From the NCBI RefSeq assembly GCF_003253995.1, contig NZ_QKZL01000007.1, positions 62,001 to 126,000 of the forward strand: a DNA stretch of 64,000 nt. The letters run 5' to 3'. This stretch comes from Palleronia aestuarii. GTDB taxonomy: Bacteria > Pseudomonadota > Alphaproteobacteria > Rhodobacterales > Rhodobacteraceae. Below, one piece after another: positions 39,605 through 62,470 of the stretch; the first letter of the stretch is position 1; the number at the start of each line of letters is the position of its first letter. The notes beneath the pieces were generated by a model. It did no database searches and was not told the DNA's origin. It was given only the letters and a program-made list of their open reading frames with translations. A program made the position numbers and the translations under genes.

Positions 39605-40108
39605 TCAATCGTCGTCGTCGTCGCCGGGCAGGTAGGTGTTCGGATCCTTGTCCGGATCATAACCCTCCTCGATCTCGAGCTGACCCATCGGCGCGGTATC
39701 GTACTCGTCGGGGTTCCAGATCAGGAAGGTCTCCCCGTTGCCCACCACCCGCGCCGAATCCGTGAGGCCGAGCTTGTCGCGGATCTTGGCACTCAGAACG
39801 ATGCGGCCCGTATCGTCGACGGTGAGCGTGGACGCCTGGCGATAGTAAAGTTTCTGCAGGTCGTCGCGTTTCTGCGATCCATTAGACATCTTCGCTATCT
39901 TCTTGGCGCGCTTCATCATTTCCTTGATCGGAAGAACCTCGAGGTAGTTGCGACGGTGATCGCCGTAGACAAGAACCATGGAAGCCTTGCCGCCAGGCGC
40001 GCAATTCGGGTCGCCATCCTCGAGTTCGCGTCTGAAATCGGCTGGAATCGACAACCGGCCCTTGCCGTCGATCTTGTTGTCGTGGTCGCCGATGAACAGA
40101 CCGAACAC
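39605..40108 (-). CDS. mraZ: Transcriptional regulator MraZ
   Basis: 167 residues from GTG at 40108, with GGAGAGG upstream. Two AbrB/SpoVT-like half-domains carry the DxxxR motifs: DGKGRLSIPADFR near the N terminus and DDTGRIVLSAKIRD in the middle. MraZ forms ring oligomers and controls the dcw promoter in other bacteria. The acidic C-terminal tail (PGDDDDD) is unremarkable. I could not find the tandem TGGGN boxes that MraZ binds in E. coli. The gene is preceded by a long leader with a terminator-like hairpin. Confidence 0.95.
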   Translation of the reverse strand: MFGLFIGDHDNKIDGKGRLSIPADFRRELEDGDPNCAPGGKASMVLVYGDHRRNYLEVLPIKEMMKRAKKIAKMSNGSQKRDDLQKLYYRQASTLTVDDTGRIVLSAKIRDKLGLTDSARVVGNGETFLIWNPDEYDTAPMGQLEIEEGYDPDKDPNTYLPGDDDDD

Positions 40109-40154: not shown

Positions 40155-40198
40155 AACGAAAACGGCGATCCGAACTGCTGCCACTGTCCGGATCGCCG
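40155..40198 (-). terminator. Terminator-like hairpin in the mraZ leader
   Basis: On the minus strand, stem CGGCGATCCG, a 16-nt loop, CGGATCGCCG (40198 down to 40163), then TTTTCGTT. The stem is 10 bp with no mismatch. It ends about 55 bp before the mraZ GTG, so transcripts entering dcw from upstream must pass it. In Rhodobacter sphaeroides premature termination in the dcw leader releases the sRNA UpsM; this hairpin is in the equivalent place. Confidence 0.75.
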
Positions 40199-40400
40199 CC
40201 GTTATCCCGTCACCGGGTGTCCGATTGCGCGCGCCACCTAGGGGGATGTCTGCTCGCCCGCGCATCGGAACTTCGAGTATCGAAGAATGTTTGCCTGTAT
40301 GAGACCTAAGCCCCTGTTATCGTTGAAGCCTTGCGATTTCTTCCGACCGCCTCGGCCCTGCTCTTCGATGACGTATGATTGGCATGGTACTGCATGGGAA
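40155..40400 (-). ncRNA. UpsM-like leader sRNA of the dcw cluster (5' end approximate)
   Basis: The minus-strand region upstream of mraZ is gene-free and less GC-rich than its surroundings, and it ends in the hairpin/U-tract at 40198-40155. In R. sphaeroides the dcw leader is about 270 nt and yields a roughly 200-nt sRNA, UpsM, by termination and RNase E processing. Position and structure match here, but I did not compare sequences and I cannot place the promoter, so the 5' boundary is a guess from the known size. Confidence 0.55.
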
Positions 40401-40559: not shown

Positions 40560-41033
40560 TCAGATCATCTCCAAGTTGATTCCTGATCGGTATTCATTCG
40601 AATCGAAGGAGGCATTTTTGGTGCGGGAAGCGATCGAGCGACCCTTGCGCGGGATCATCTCGCCGATGCAGTCCGCAGATACGCCGGAGCTACTTATGCG
40701 TTCGCCGCATAGCAGCATTGAGCCCGATCCGTATTGTGCAACCGCAGAAACGGCGTATGTTGGGATCAACGGCGGCAAGACGATGAGCCGCGATCGGAAA
40801 GGTGATAAAGACAGTAACGTTGGCGTTCAACAGAAATCAGCCCGACAATGCAGCATCTAGCTGTGCGTCGGAAAGAATTCTCCGGGGCAGCCAAACCTCT
40901 TGGACCCAGACGACGCTGTGAGAAGTTGAAGGCCCAGATCGATCCTGAAGATGGAAGTTGGGAACGTCCCGACTCTGGTTTCAGGAGTACGCACGCAACA
41001 CCGTGCGATCCTGGGTTTAGAATAGACGATCGG
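40560..41033. other. Gene-poor divergent region between the two sRNA loci
   Basis: Relatively AT-rich spacer holding no recognisable gene apart from a doubtful small reading frame. It contains small inverted repeats: AGTTGGG/CCCGACT (40956-40962/40968-40974) and CGCACG/CGTGCG (40990-40995/41002-41007). A possible -10 box, TAGAAT, lies at 41018-41023 just before the first hairpin of the plus-strand array; no good -35 matches it. Confidence 0.4.
40621..40860 (+). CDS. Doubtful small hypothetical protein
   Basis: A 79-residue frame from GTG with an excellent AAGGAGG ribosome binding site 7-8 bases upstream. The protein (REAIERPLRGIISPMQ at the start, KSARQCSI at the end) matches no family I recognise. 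Codon use looks normal for this genome in the first 20 codons, then drifts to AT-ending codons. It may be a decayed gene or a chance frame in front of the sRNA array. Confidence 0.25.
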   Translation: MREAIERPLRGIISPMQSADTPELLMRSPHSSIEPDPYCATAETAYVGINGGKTMSRDRKGDKDSNVGVQQKSARQCSI

Positions 41034-41322
41034 ACTGTCCGCTCCTCCCTGGGCAGTTCGTGACTGGCGACGGCACCGACCTCCTCCCCGATGTCGTCGT
41101 CACCCTACAAGGATGCCCAAGGGTATCCACGAGACGCGGTCGAGCCCACCTCCTCCCGGGCGACACCGCTAAACGCGGCGGCGCCGACCTCCTCCCCGGC
41201 GCCGTCGTGACCCCATAGGGCTCAGGCCCAACCGAATGCGAGCATCCCGTCCTCCTCCCTAGGGGTGTTCGCTGTAAGAGCGGCGGCGTCCACCTCCTCC
41301 CGGGCGTCGCCGTTTCTCTTTT
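41034..41322 (+). ncRNA. Tandem CCUCCUCCC-loop sRNA array (cuckoo/CcsR type), three units
   Basis: Six stem-loops expose CTCCTCCC in their loops. Stems (left/right): 41034-41040/41051-41057; 41065-41075/41092-41102; 41136-41147/41158-41169 (interrupted); 41174-41186/41197-41209; 41238-41248/41262-41272; 41281-41291/41302-41312. They form three pairs whose first bases are at 41034, 41136 and about 41238, a 102-bp period. Small hairpins sit between units (41111-41128, 41218-41229). The last stem is followed by TTTCTCTTTT. The loops are complementary to the Shine-Dalgarno sequence. Two-hairpin anti-SD sRNAs of this form are the cuckoo RNAs of Rhizobiales and the CcsR RNAs of R. sphaeroides, which act with Hfq under stress. 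Confidence 0.85.
41281..41322 (+). terminator. Intrinsic terminator ending the hairpin array
   Basis: The sixth CCTCCTCCC hairpin (11-bp stem with two G-U pairs, 41281-41312) is directly followed by TTTCTCTTTT (41313-41322). It fixes the direction of transcription as plus, towards the 3' end of the convergent uvrD gene. Confidence 0.85.
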
Positions 41323-41390: not shown

Positions 41391-43778
41391 TCAGAACGGC
41401 ACGCCGTCCGCGTTCTGGGCCGGGACGACGAACTTCCCGACGATCTTCTTCGTGCCTGCCTTGTCGAAGGCGATCTCGAGCTTGTCGCCCTCCACACCCA
41501 CGACCCCGCCATAGCCGAACTTCGTGTGGAACACCCGATCCCCGACGGCGAAGGCGGATACGGCGCTGCCGTCGATGACCATCTGGCGGGCCTCCCGCGG
41601 CTGGCTTACCGGCCGATCCGCCGCACGCGCCTGAAGACGCCGCCAGCCCGGGGAATTGTAGACGTTCGCCTCAGCTGCGCGATCGTGCAGGTCGCTCGAC
41701 GCCGCCGCGACGATGGCCGGCGACGCACTCGCCGCCATGCCCGCCGCCCCGTAGCCGCCGCCGTAAAGGCCCGGCGGGGTCAGAACGTCCACGTGGTCCG
41801 CCGGCAATTCGTCGATGAACCGCGAGGGAAGTGCGGATTGCCATTGTCCGTAGACGCGCCGGTTGGCGGCAAAGCTTACGGTCGCGAGCTCTTCCGCGCG
41901 GGTGATCCCGACATAGGCGAGGCGCCGCTCTTCCTCGAGGCCCTTCAGACCCGATTCGTCCATGCTCCGCTGCGAGGGAAAGAGTCCGTCCTCCCAGCCG
42001 GGAAGGAATACGGCGGGAAACTCGAGTCCCTTGGCAGCATGGAGCGTCATGATCGACACCTTCGCGCCGTCGCTCTCGCCGGCATTGTCCATGACGAGCG
42101 CTACATGTTCGAGAAAGCCTTGCAGGTTCTCGAAGGATTCGAGCGCCTTCACGAGTTCCTTGAGGTTCTCGAGCCGCCCCGGTGCCTCCGGCGTCTTGTC
42201 GTTCTGCCAATGCCCGGTATAGCCCGATTCGTCGAGGATGCGCTCCGCCAGCTCAACGTGCGGGGCGCCGCTGCGAACCGCGTCGTTCCAGCGACCGATC
42301 GCATCGACCAGAGCGCGCAACTCCGTCGCGCCGCGCCCGCCCAGCCCCTTCTCGGCAAGCAGGATCCGCGCCCCGTCGACGAGCGTCGTGCCGTTCTCCC
42401 GCGCGCTGCGCTGGATCGCCTGCTGCGCCTTGTCGCCGAGGCCACGCTTCGGCGTGTTGACGATTCGCTCGAAGGCCAGGTCGTCGTCGGGCCCGACGGC
42501 GAGCCGCAGATAGGCCATGGCATCGCGAATCTCCATCCGCTCGTAGAAGCGCGGGCCGCCGATGACCCGGTAGGGCAGACCGATCGTGAGAAACCGGTCC
42601 TCGAACGATCGCATCTGGTGCGACGCGCGCACGAGAATCGCGATCTCGTCGAGACCCACCTTCCGCAAACCGCGCGTGCCGCGCCCGAGCGCCTCGATCT
42701 CCTCGCCGATCCAGCGCGCCTCCTCCTCCCCGTCCCAATGGCCGATGAGGCGCAGCTTCTCGCCCGCCTCTTCCGCGGTCCAGAGCGTCTTGCCGAGCCG
42801 CCCCTCGTTCGCGGCGATCACGCCGGACGCGGCGGCCAGGATGTGCGGGGTCGATCGGTAGTTCTGCTCCAGCCGGACGATCTCCGCCCCCGGAAAATCC
42901 TTTTCGAAGCGCAAAATGTTGCCCACCTCCGCCCCGCGCCAGCCATAGATCGACTGGTCGTCGTCACCGACGCAGCAGACGTTGCGATGCTCTTGGGCGA
43001 GAAGTCTCAGCCAGAGATACTGCGCGACGTTCGTGTCCTGGTACTCGTCGACGAGGATGTAACGAAACCACCTCTGGTACTGGGCGAGCACGTCGGAATG
43101 GGTGCGGAAGATCGTCAGCATGTGAAGCAGGAGATCGCCGAAATCCACCGCGTTCAGGGTCTTCAGACGTTCCTGGTACTGCGCGTAGAGTTCGCTGCCC
43201 CGATGGTTGAAGGCGCCGGCCTCGGAGGCGGGAACGCTTTCCGGCGTCCAGGCGCGGTTCTTCCAACCATCGATGATCGAGGCGAGTTGACGCGGCGGCC
43301 AGCGCTTCTCGTCGATGTTCTCCGCGACGATGAGCTGCTTCAGGAGACGGAGCTGGTCGTCAGTGTCGAGGATGGTGAAGGAGGATTTGAGACCCACGAG
43401 CTCCGCATGGCGACGCAACAGCTTGACGCAGATCGCGTGGAACGTGCCGAGCCACGGCATCCCCTCCACCGTCTGGCCGAGAAGCCGCCCCACCCGCTCC
43501 TTCATCTCCCGCGCGGCCTTGTTCGTGAAGGTGACGGCGAGGATCTCGTTCGGACGTGCGCGCCCGGTCATCATCAAATGCGCGATTCGCGCGGTCAGCG
43601 CCTTGGTCTTCCCGGTGCCCGCGCCGGCGAGCATCAGGACCGGACCGTCGAGCGCCTCAACCGCGCGCCGCTGCGCGGGATTGAGATCGTCGAGATAGGG
43701 CGCCGCGCGGGGCGCCATCGCCCTCTGGGACAGCGGCACGGCCGCGTCGAAGGCGGCATCTTCGGAGGAACTGCTCAT
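41391..43778 (-). CDS. uvrD: UvrD/PcrA-type DNA helicase
   Basis: 795 residues from ATG at 43778; a GTG three codons earlier is possible. Superfamily 1A 3'-5' helicase: Walker A AGAGTGKTKALTARI, DEXX box ILVDEYQDTN, GDDDQSIYGWRGA, QNYRSTPHIL, and VSIMTLHAAKGLEFP (motif V). The C-terminal 60 residues form the Tudor-like RNA polymerase-binding domain (VFHTKFGYGGVVGVEGDKLEIAF), as in PcrA/UvrD. Acts in nucleotide excision and mismatch repair. It ends convergently with the sRNA array, 69 bp after the array's U-tract. Confidence 0.95.
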   Translation of the reverse strand: MSSSSEDAAFDAAVPLSQRAMAPRAAPYLDDLNPAQRRAVEALDGPVLMLAGAGTGKTKALTARIAHLMMTGRARPNEILAVTFTNKAAREMKERVGRLLGQTVEGMPWLGTFHAICVKLLRRHAELVGLKSSFTILDTDDQLRLLKQLIVAENIDEKRWPPRQLASIIDGWKNRAWTPESVPASEAGAFNHRGSELYAQYQERLKTLNAVDFGDLLLHMLTIFRTHSDVLAQYQRWFRYILVDEYQDTNVAQYLWLRLLAQEHRNVCCVGDDDQSIYGWRGAEVGNILRFEKDFPGAEIVRLEQNYRSTPHILAAASGVIAANEGRLGKTLWTAEEAGEKLRLIGHWDGEEEARWIGEEIEALGRGTRGLRKVGLDEIAILVRASHQMRSFEDRFLTIGLPYRVIGGPRFYERMEIRDAMAYLRLAVGPDDDLAFERIVNTPKRGLGDKAQQAIQRSARENGTTLVDGARILLAEKGLGGRGATELRALVDAIGRWNDAVRSGAPHVELAERILDESGYTGHWQNDKTPEAPGRLENLKELVKALESFENLQGFLEHVALVMDNAGESDGAKVSIMTLHAAKGLEFPAVFLPGWEDGLFPSQRSMDESGLKGLEEERRLAYVGITRAEELATVSFAANRRVYGQWQSALPSRFIDELPADHVDVLTPPGLYGGGYGAAGMAASASPAIVAAASSDLHDRAAEANVYNSPGWRRLQARAADRPVSQPREARQMVIDGSAVSAFAVGDRVFHTKFGYGGVVGVEGDKLEIAFDKAGTKKIVGKFVVPAQNADGVPF

Positions 43779-43930
43779 TCTCGGCACGATAGCCGTTCAC
43801 GTGCAGGAACGGAAGTCCGGTGTTCCTCCTCCGTTCCGTTTCAAAGACCAGGTCGAGCGGGCGGCGCGCTGTAGCGGCCATGTCTTGCGATCCGCCTTGC
43901 GCGGCGTCTCCCCCTCTCCATAAGAGAGGG

Positions 43931-62350: not shown

Positions 62351-62470
62351 TGGAAACCTCTTTGAACTTCCAGTCTGGTTTCCTCCCTTGCCTGACAAGA
62401 TAGCCATTGGGCCCTGAACGCCTAGCCGTCGATCTCTCATAGCCGCATTGCAGCATTCGCAACCCCGATC

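Follow-up and report, generated by a model that had tools for sequence, protein, structure and literature searches.

A CcsR-like small RNA array without a recognisable DUF1127 gene at the mraZ-pcrA locus of Palleronia aestuarii

Introduction

Small RNAs of the CcsR family cover ribosome-binding sites, and the cuckoo RNAs consist of two-hairpin units with an exposed CUCCUCCC in the loop of either hairpin, whose variable stems stay paired by compensating change around a constant loop. CcsR arrays have so far been studied within an operon that unites a protein gene with the sRNAs. For Rhodobacter sphaeroides, published work describes a CcsR precursor that is processed by RNase E. The sRNA names used there include RSs0680a (CcsR, made with RSP_6037) and RSs0682 (UpsM, the dcw leader RNA; PMC5089854), a numbering which suggests that R. 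sphaeroides CcsR lies in the same neighbourhood as the dcw leader RNA.

Here, we examine a 64,000-nt stretch of P. aestuarii DNA (hereafter the window), in which a sequence-only reading had marked an array of such hairpins. The array it observed is real and is confirmed in part, and its interpretation is partly supported: the RNA type and the missing DUF1127 gene were rightly named, while the contrast drawn over the chromosomal place and the fixed period were wrong. The array is of the CcsR/cuckoo type in its ordinary place and in a less ordinary, protein-free form, and what is most interesting about it (a conserved double operator, and the uncoupling of the sRNAs from the protein gene) lies outside the interval which that reading had delimited.

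Architecture of the hairpin array

Six stem-loops with an exposed anti-Shine-Dalgarno loop had been proposed, and all six were located on the forward strand, each carrying CTCCTCCC (n = 6, at 41042, 41081, 41150, 41189, 41252 and 41294). The hairpins, which present CUCCUCCC, group into three two-hairpin units, as had also been read from the letters: unit 1 at 41024-41106 (+; loops 41042 and 41081), unit 2 at 41130-41214 (+; loops 41150 and 41189) and unit 3 at 41232-41319 (+; loops 41252 and 41294). The first unit begins near 41024, rather than at 41034 as first thought, and the supposedly constant period of 102 bp gives way to spacings of 108 and then 102 between first loops, and of 108 and then 105 between second loops.

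The longer loop sequence is CCTCCTCCC in five of the hairpins and GCTCCTCCC in the first one. Within the 64,000-nt window CCTCCTCCC occurs in 7 copies (1.3 expected; none of 100 shuffles reached 7), five of which fall in the array. Elsewhere in the genome, a pair of CCTCCTCCC copies 102 bp apart on contig C13 was set aside as a chance occurrence (at most 6 of 9 positions paired, and reading frames open over the whole 1 kb). The array region folds at -153.7 kcal/mol (z = -5.35 against shuffles), and the three units folded alone reach z values of -2.2, -3.8 and -5.0.

A U-rich tract (TTTCTCTTTT, 41313-41322, +), read directly from the sequence, lies 3' of the last hairpin and is probably the intrinsic terminator of the array. 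The earlier claim that the array ends in a U-tract thus stands as far as the tract itself is concerned, but a simple terminator scan, which admits loops of 3-8 nt only, reports no terminator at the array end.

Covariation and covariance-model searches

Covariation was assessed in units extracted from the arrays of relatives, with the window left out. Extraction had admitted only units that paired at 7 or more of 9 positions in any one of eight registers, which gave 46; for building a covariance model, R1, 26 of these were picked by eye, with nearly identical tandem copies and certain units of odd spacing left aside. In the relatives' units both partners had changed in 15 of 18 pairs without loss of pairing, and on none of five measures did any of 500 shuffles reach the observed value; the percentage paired in this 26-unit test is inflated, because pairing was a prior requirement of extraction. 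As the extraction favoured pairing loops, the test was repeated without the filter on 305 loops, namely CTCCTCCC sites lying up to 600 nt 3' of a DUF1127 gene at the 57 named loci having such a gene. There, 0.60 of the first eight positions were paired, as compared with 0.47 when the arms were permuted (maximum of 500 permutations, 0.494). When the window's six hairpins were taken alone in a fixed register and their 3' arms were reassigned in all 720 ways, 33 arrangements, counting the real one, paired at least as well. Hence, the compensating change which had been claimed for the stems is strong across relatives, where variable stems remain paired around a constant loop, and unconvincing within the six hairpins themselves.

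A covariance-model search had been set beforehand as the test on which the cuckoo/CcsR identity could fail, and neither of the two models rejected any of the units, which were matched in all three cases. R1 recovered units 3, 2 and 1 in the window at 60.3, 58.5 and 55.8 bits (E from 5.4e-10 to 3.8e-9; next match 18.8 bits), and over the genome (4.54 Mb, 77 contigs) these three were the only matches with E <= 1, among the 150 of 9436 first-look candidates that were scored. RF02791 (CcsR1) matched units 2, 3 and 1 at 42.6, 35.2 and 28.6 bits (E from 8.8e-9 to 1.2e-4 in a 1251-base search); none of them attains its gathering score of 65.3 bits, and an Rfam search at gathering scores did not report the array. 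RF02791 has matches throughout the genus (14 of 14 genomes) and in 30 of 60 relatives, both counts including the window's genome; the cut-off is reached in just 1 of the 60, so that the curated model is narrow. A further RF02791 match, on contig C14 (E = 0.08), was rejected, since CTCCTCC is absent from the surrounding kilobase and R1 gives no match there at E <= 1. The alpha-r14 model (RF02344) matches two stretches of the array below its curated score (41170-41317 at 47.5 bits, cut-off 58.8). At the far end of the window, 63739-64000 matches the 5_ureB_sRNA model (RF02514) at 90.6 bits, the match being cut by the window end.

Chromosomal place

The array is flanked on the dcw side by mraZ (39605-40108, -) and on the other by a convergent pcrA/uvrD-type helicase gene (41391-43787, -; Pfam UvrD-helicase, UvrD_C and PcrA_UvrD_tudor). 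Upstream of mraZ, a block conserved in blastn comparisons with relatives (40155-40387, -) occupies the place of a UpsM-type dcw leader, which it putatively represents; it is a divergent neighbour and lies outside the array. The order mraZ < ... DUF1127 > CcsR units > ... < pcrA is the usual one in the window's genus (which includes Palleronia rufa and P. pelagia) and across Rhodobacteraceae. The PcrA proteins of three named Palleronia species are 82-84% identical to that of the window, those of Kandeliimicrobium and Oceaniovalibus 82% and 81%, respectively.

The array lies between mraZ and pcrA on a single contig in 11 of 13 congeners, and the contigs of the remaining two (G008 and G013) break inside it. 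A DUF1127 gene is found immediately 5' of the array in 11 of the 14 genomes of the genus and is absent in P. rufa (G010) and in the window's genome; in G008 the contig ends upstream of the array, and a DUF1127 gene with the same promoter is located at the end of another contig. We further considered 80 named loci that were the best matches to PcrA. R1 units are present in 62 of them (the 18 without an R1 match being counted as misses), and six of these 62, with less than 600 nt upstream, were excluded from the DUF1127 and motif counts (n = 56). On the array's strand, which the search covered, the DUF1127 gene is directly upstream in 47 of the 56 loci and 321 nt upstream in one; in six it ends 430-519 nt downstream of the start of the first unit, and two have none (P. 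rufa, L119, and L130). The sequence-only reading had contrasted the array's place beside the dcw leader with that of the CcsR sRNAs next to a DUF1127 gene; given the genus-wide and 56-locus counts, the mraZ-pcrA interval is instead the conserved locus of the family, and it is the missing protein gene that makes the exception. The array thus shares with ccaF1-CcsR and CIN1 loci the conserved mraZ-pcrA place and a conserved promoter, and has no co-transcribed DUF1127 gene directly upstream.

Other arrangements were encountered among the named loci. Five of them labelled Sulfitobacter (L131, L146, L161, L166 and L182) have the sRNA first, in the order promoter, CcsR unit and DUF1127 gene ending about 500 nt downstream, and at L138 (uncultured Tropicimonas; G020) four DUF1127 genes alternate with CcsR units.

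Locus positions (taken from alignment A2, which holds 150 of 162 R1 matches, and from 13 rows of the match table, giving 162 distinct units) show 1 to 8 units per named locus, with the last unit from less than 100 nt to at least 4.6 kb away from pcrA; the distance of the array to the DUF1127 gene and promoter is far less variable. These figures bear on whether the hairpins could be cis-acting, terminating or stabilising RNA between the dcw leader and the convergent pcrA, with a loop that has no role in trans. The adjoining convergent gene and the U-tract on the last hairpin would suit such a role, which we nevertheless judge very improbable, as a constant loop on varying stems is the reverse of a plain terminator, and as unit number and distance to pcrA vary so widely while the spacing to DUF1127 and promoter changes far less.

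Promoter and operator-like element

An operator-like element (TATGCGTTCGCCGCATAGCAGCATTG), conserved 5' of the DUF1127-CcsR operon, was recognised by sequence comparison at 40695-40720 (+), where it reads TGCG-N6-GCAT plus CCGC-N3-GCAG and constitutes the only zero-mismatch match to GCNGCATNGCAGCATTG in the genome. A copy of the operator core with one mismatch (GCCGCATTGCAGCATTC) is present at 62442-62458 of the window. Downstream of the element, comparison with relatives revealed a promoter-like segment (40734-40761, +) with a -35 TTG at 40734 and a -10/-12 TATGTT at 40756, its -35 and spacer being overlapped by a second box, TGCA-N6-GAAA. The window departs from the operator boxes in having TGCG for TGCA in box 1, GAAA for GCAT in box 2, and CCGC for CTGC, with one or two departures in each of the three site readings. 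The core of the genus-wide promoter and 5' leader is situated 335-460 nt 5' of the first loop (window and 11 congener loci), and 108 nt in P. rufa.

Across 49 distinct promoters the consensus is TGCANTTGCTGCATAGCAGCATTG, 13-14 nt, TTGTGCANNYGCAGCAT and then TA..T, of which only the positions outside GC.GCAT.GC(A/G)GCATT and TTGT are informative, these having been fixed in the collecting expression. Of the 56 arrays, 41 have the element in the 900 nt that precede them, as compared with 148 of 4000 random 900-nt windows; the expression is strict, and misses L130, in which the element is plain by eye.

The element suggests several regulators. In published work, the TTG/TAT arrangement corresponds to the RpoHI/RpoHII pattern described for a CcaF1 homologue's gene in R. 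sphaeroides (PMC10673084), TGCA-N6-GCAT is the LsrB site in the NfeR1 promoter, and CTGCN3GCAG (CTGCNNNGCAG) is the published R. sphaeroides site of PhaR. The TGCA-N6-GCAT reading fits 31 of the 49 promoters at each box and CTGCN3GCAG fits 38 of the 49 at box 1, a comparison that cannot decide between LsrB and PhaR because the collecting expression fixes part of both sites. The genome encodes PhaR (PF07879), and CTGCN3GCAG is present upstream of 8 of 30 phasin genes, as against 23 of 900 windows taken at random, the sample being 30 loci out of the 50 matches listed for the genus, with near-identical G008/G013 pairs counted separately. One phasin gene (PF09361; L115, G000:C6:49861) is preceded by TGCTGCAGTGCAGCATT. 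Among the titles and abstract beginnings listed in searches of the open literature, we found no report tying PhaR or LsrB to CcsR, or describing arrays that lack DUF1127. The array is most likely induced by stress or nutrients. The family-wide operator names LsrB/VtlR, PhaR and RpoHI/II as candidate regulators, and a shared one would join rhizobial NfeR1 and rhodobacterial CcsR in one control scheme.

The missing DUF1127 gene and a CcaF1-like gene elsewhere

Between promoter and array, where relatives have the DUF1127 gene, the window holds a leader or spacer (40762-41023, +) that is conserved to about 40807 and contains no recognisable DUF1127 coding sequence beyond. The claim that no DUF1127 gene adjoins the array was borne out from mraZ to the array by protein profile, nucleotide profile and shuffled-control scan alike. 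A six-frame profile search of the locus for a remnant returned nothing significant (a congener's gene scored E = 3e-19 in comparison). A nucleotide profile of nine congeners (nhmmer) identified the window's promoter and 5' leader with E = 1.8e-22, the match ending at about 40807. The best ungapped match to a DUF1127 matrix reached 14.2 bits, off the expected register and equalled by 23 of 300 shuffles (158.9 bits for a congener's gene), and the nucleotide similarity of the spacer to DUF1127 genes was no better than that of shuffles. The length from operator to first loop, 367 nt, agrees with that of eight of the nine congeners (363-383 nt; 456 nt in the ninth). Since profile, matrix and nucleotide searches recognise no DUF1127, we do not speak of a pseudogene: by these comparisons, the gene has been lost from the locus or has decayed beyond recognition, with promoter, leader and array retained. 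An ORF at 40621-40860 (79 aa, GTG start) was discarded as a replacement gene, as it lacks a Pfam match and overlaps operator and promoter; its better tblastn matches among relatives, those with E below 0.1 at residues 25-60, coincide with the conserved promoter element.

Three DUF1127 genes above the Pfam cut-off are encoded in the genome, none on the array's contig. One of them, on contig C19, is preceded by the element GCTGCAACGCGGCATT, followed by TTGTGCGTCTGCAGCAT and a similar leader, 98 nt 5' of its ATG, an offset also seen at the array-adjacent DUF1127 genes of G008 and G013. When 20 DUF1127 loci (four without an ORF match) were searched by expression, the element was found only at these three genes; inspection by eye showed looser variants 5' of DUF1127 genes in P. 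rufa (C10) and G006 (C16 and C27). The C19 element and the looser variants together suggest that CcsR arrays share a promoter type with some of the DUF1127 genes. The C19 protein is 31-60% identical to its matches in congeners, and the gene may be a paralogue of long standing and not a copy that has moved. Published work on R. sphaeroides describes CcaF1 as affecting CcsR levels in trans, and the C19 protein, which is CcaF1-like, would probably serve the array in trans. At another locus (L114, G000:C4:105581, 1501-1769), a GCTGCATGGCAGCATAG element begins 110 nt 5' of a DUF1127-like ORF of 53 aa, which has no Pfam match but is found by the profile of array-adjacent DUF1127 proteins (E = 1.9e-5).

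An array deprived of its DUF1127 gene might be a decaying relic, with a drifting operator and RNAs that are no longer made or used. The undetectable coding sequence, the imperfect operator boxes and the low RF02791 scores (28.6-42.6 bits) would fit such decay, yet all six loops are intact, the units score 55.8-60.3 bits with a model built without the window, promoter and leader are conserved, and RF02791 scores of this order are normal for the group (1 of 60 relatives at the cut-off). The DUF1127-free state moreover occurs elsewhere, as P. rufa (L119) and L130 likewise keep promoter and units without the gene. We therefore consider a relic unlikely, and retain the reading of a kept array from whose locus the protein gene has gone.

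A broader proposal is offered tentatively, as one that may well prove wrong: the Rhodobacteraceae CcsR arrays and a set of DUF1127 genes would form one regulon under the double operator (TGCANTTGCTGCAT and TGCANNYGCAGCAT around the -35), read either by a LysR regulator of the LsrB/VtlR type, as are the promoters of rhizobial NfeR1 and AbcR1, or by PhaR, which controls storage polymers, with the sRNAs turning down nutrient uptake. Within this proposal, array and CcaF1-type gene are split in the window's species and, as each keeps the promoter, would be co-regulated in trans. Natural arrays without DUF1127 (the window, P. rufa and L130) show that sRNAs and protein gene can be uncoupled, and they offer a direct test of whether a CcaF1-type protein is needed in cis for sRNA maturation.

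Proposed mechanism and candidate targets

The reading we favour, with considerable though not full confidence, is that of a CcsR/cuckoo-type array at the ordinary locus of the family, from which DUF1127 has been lost, and whose sRNAs would block ribosome-binding sites (ABC-transporter mRNAs likely among the targets), with a CcaF1-like protein probably supplied in trans from C19. The analysis itself establishes the hairpin structure, the homology, covariation in relatives, synteny, a conserved promoter, the lack of any recognisable DUF1127 coding sequence and a second gene carrying the same promoter. As to transcription, processing, targets and the role of the C19 protein, we infer the following course. 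The promoter at about 40734-40761 would drive a single forward-strand transcript with the three units, ending in the U-tract near 41322, and this would be cut into two-hairpin RNAs some 80-90 nt long, with CUCCUCCC displayed in every loop. By pairing with purine-rich Shine-Dalgarno sequences, the loops would block the translation of a set of mRNAs, probably including some for ABC transporters and sugar use. In the window's species the operon has lost its CcaF1-type (DUF1127) gene and retained promoter, leader and array, and the protein probably now comes from the C19 gene, which carries a copy of the array's promoter.

Strong ribosome-binding sites are complementary to the loop sequence. A genome search for GGGAGGAGG-N3-9-ATG gave 15 sites (0 for a reversed-pattern control), one of which is the array's own antisense; the excess is no proof of targeting, because any strong ribosome-binding site has such a pattern. 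Among the 14 sites outside the array, six lead into ORFs of only 4-39 aa, the other eight into ORFs of 77 aa or more. For six of these eight a Pfam family was found (phosphonate-type binding protein, SBP_bac_1 binding protein, ABC ATPase, FGGY sugar kinase, nitroreductase and deaminase, the start of the deaminase ORF falling inside the deaminase gene). NfeR1, an RNA with the same loop, is described in published work as silencing two periplasmic ABC-transporter mRNAs via these motifs, and the genes behind the GGGAGGAGG sites are candidate targets that fit the transport targets published for it.

The RNAs could also mainly bind the ribosome or a protein, as a general translation brake or sponge, instead of chosen mRNAs; in a variant of this idea, antisense read-through from pcrA would show GGGAGGAGG loops, as CsrA sponges do, and act as such a sponge or as an antidote to the array. 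Six repeated identical loops do resemble a multivalent binder, and the loop itself resembles the anti-Shine-Dalgarno sequence of 16S rRNA. We give this explanation only a slight chance, seeing that the conserved promoter is on the forward strand and that the best studied relative silences chosen mRNAs via base pairing.

Comparison with known systems

Among the systems closest to the array is CcsR1-4/ccaF1 (RSP_6037) of R. sphaeroides (RF02791). The two have in common tandem units with CCUCCUCCC loops, an end terminator, a promoter with the TTG/TAT pattern resembling RpoHI/RpoHII and, by the sRNA numbering, a neighbourhood beside the dcw leader RNA UpsM; they differ in that the array has no DUF1127 in its operon, has three units rather than four, and remains below the Rfam cut-off. 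With the cuckoo RNA family and the CIN1 locus (DUF1127 plus CcsR-like RNAs) it shares the constant anti-Shine-Dalgarno loop and the variable stems, whereas the DUF1127 gene that usually accompanies such loci is missing here. The alpha-r14/NfeR1 RNA of Sinorhizobium meliloti (RF02344) presents the same CCUCCUCCC loops, and its promoter contains a TGCA-N6-GCAT box resembling the boxes of the conserved CcsR promoter. It has three hairpins per RNA, unlike the two-hairpin units of the array (47.5 bits, short of the RF02344 cut-off of 58.8), and its transport targets are published, whereas those of the array are candidates only. A further close counterpart is the array of P. rufa (L119, G010), which has the same place, the same promoter, three units and no DUF1127, as in the window; its promoter element begins 88 nt 5' of unit 1, while a spacer of DUF1127-gene length is retained in the window.
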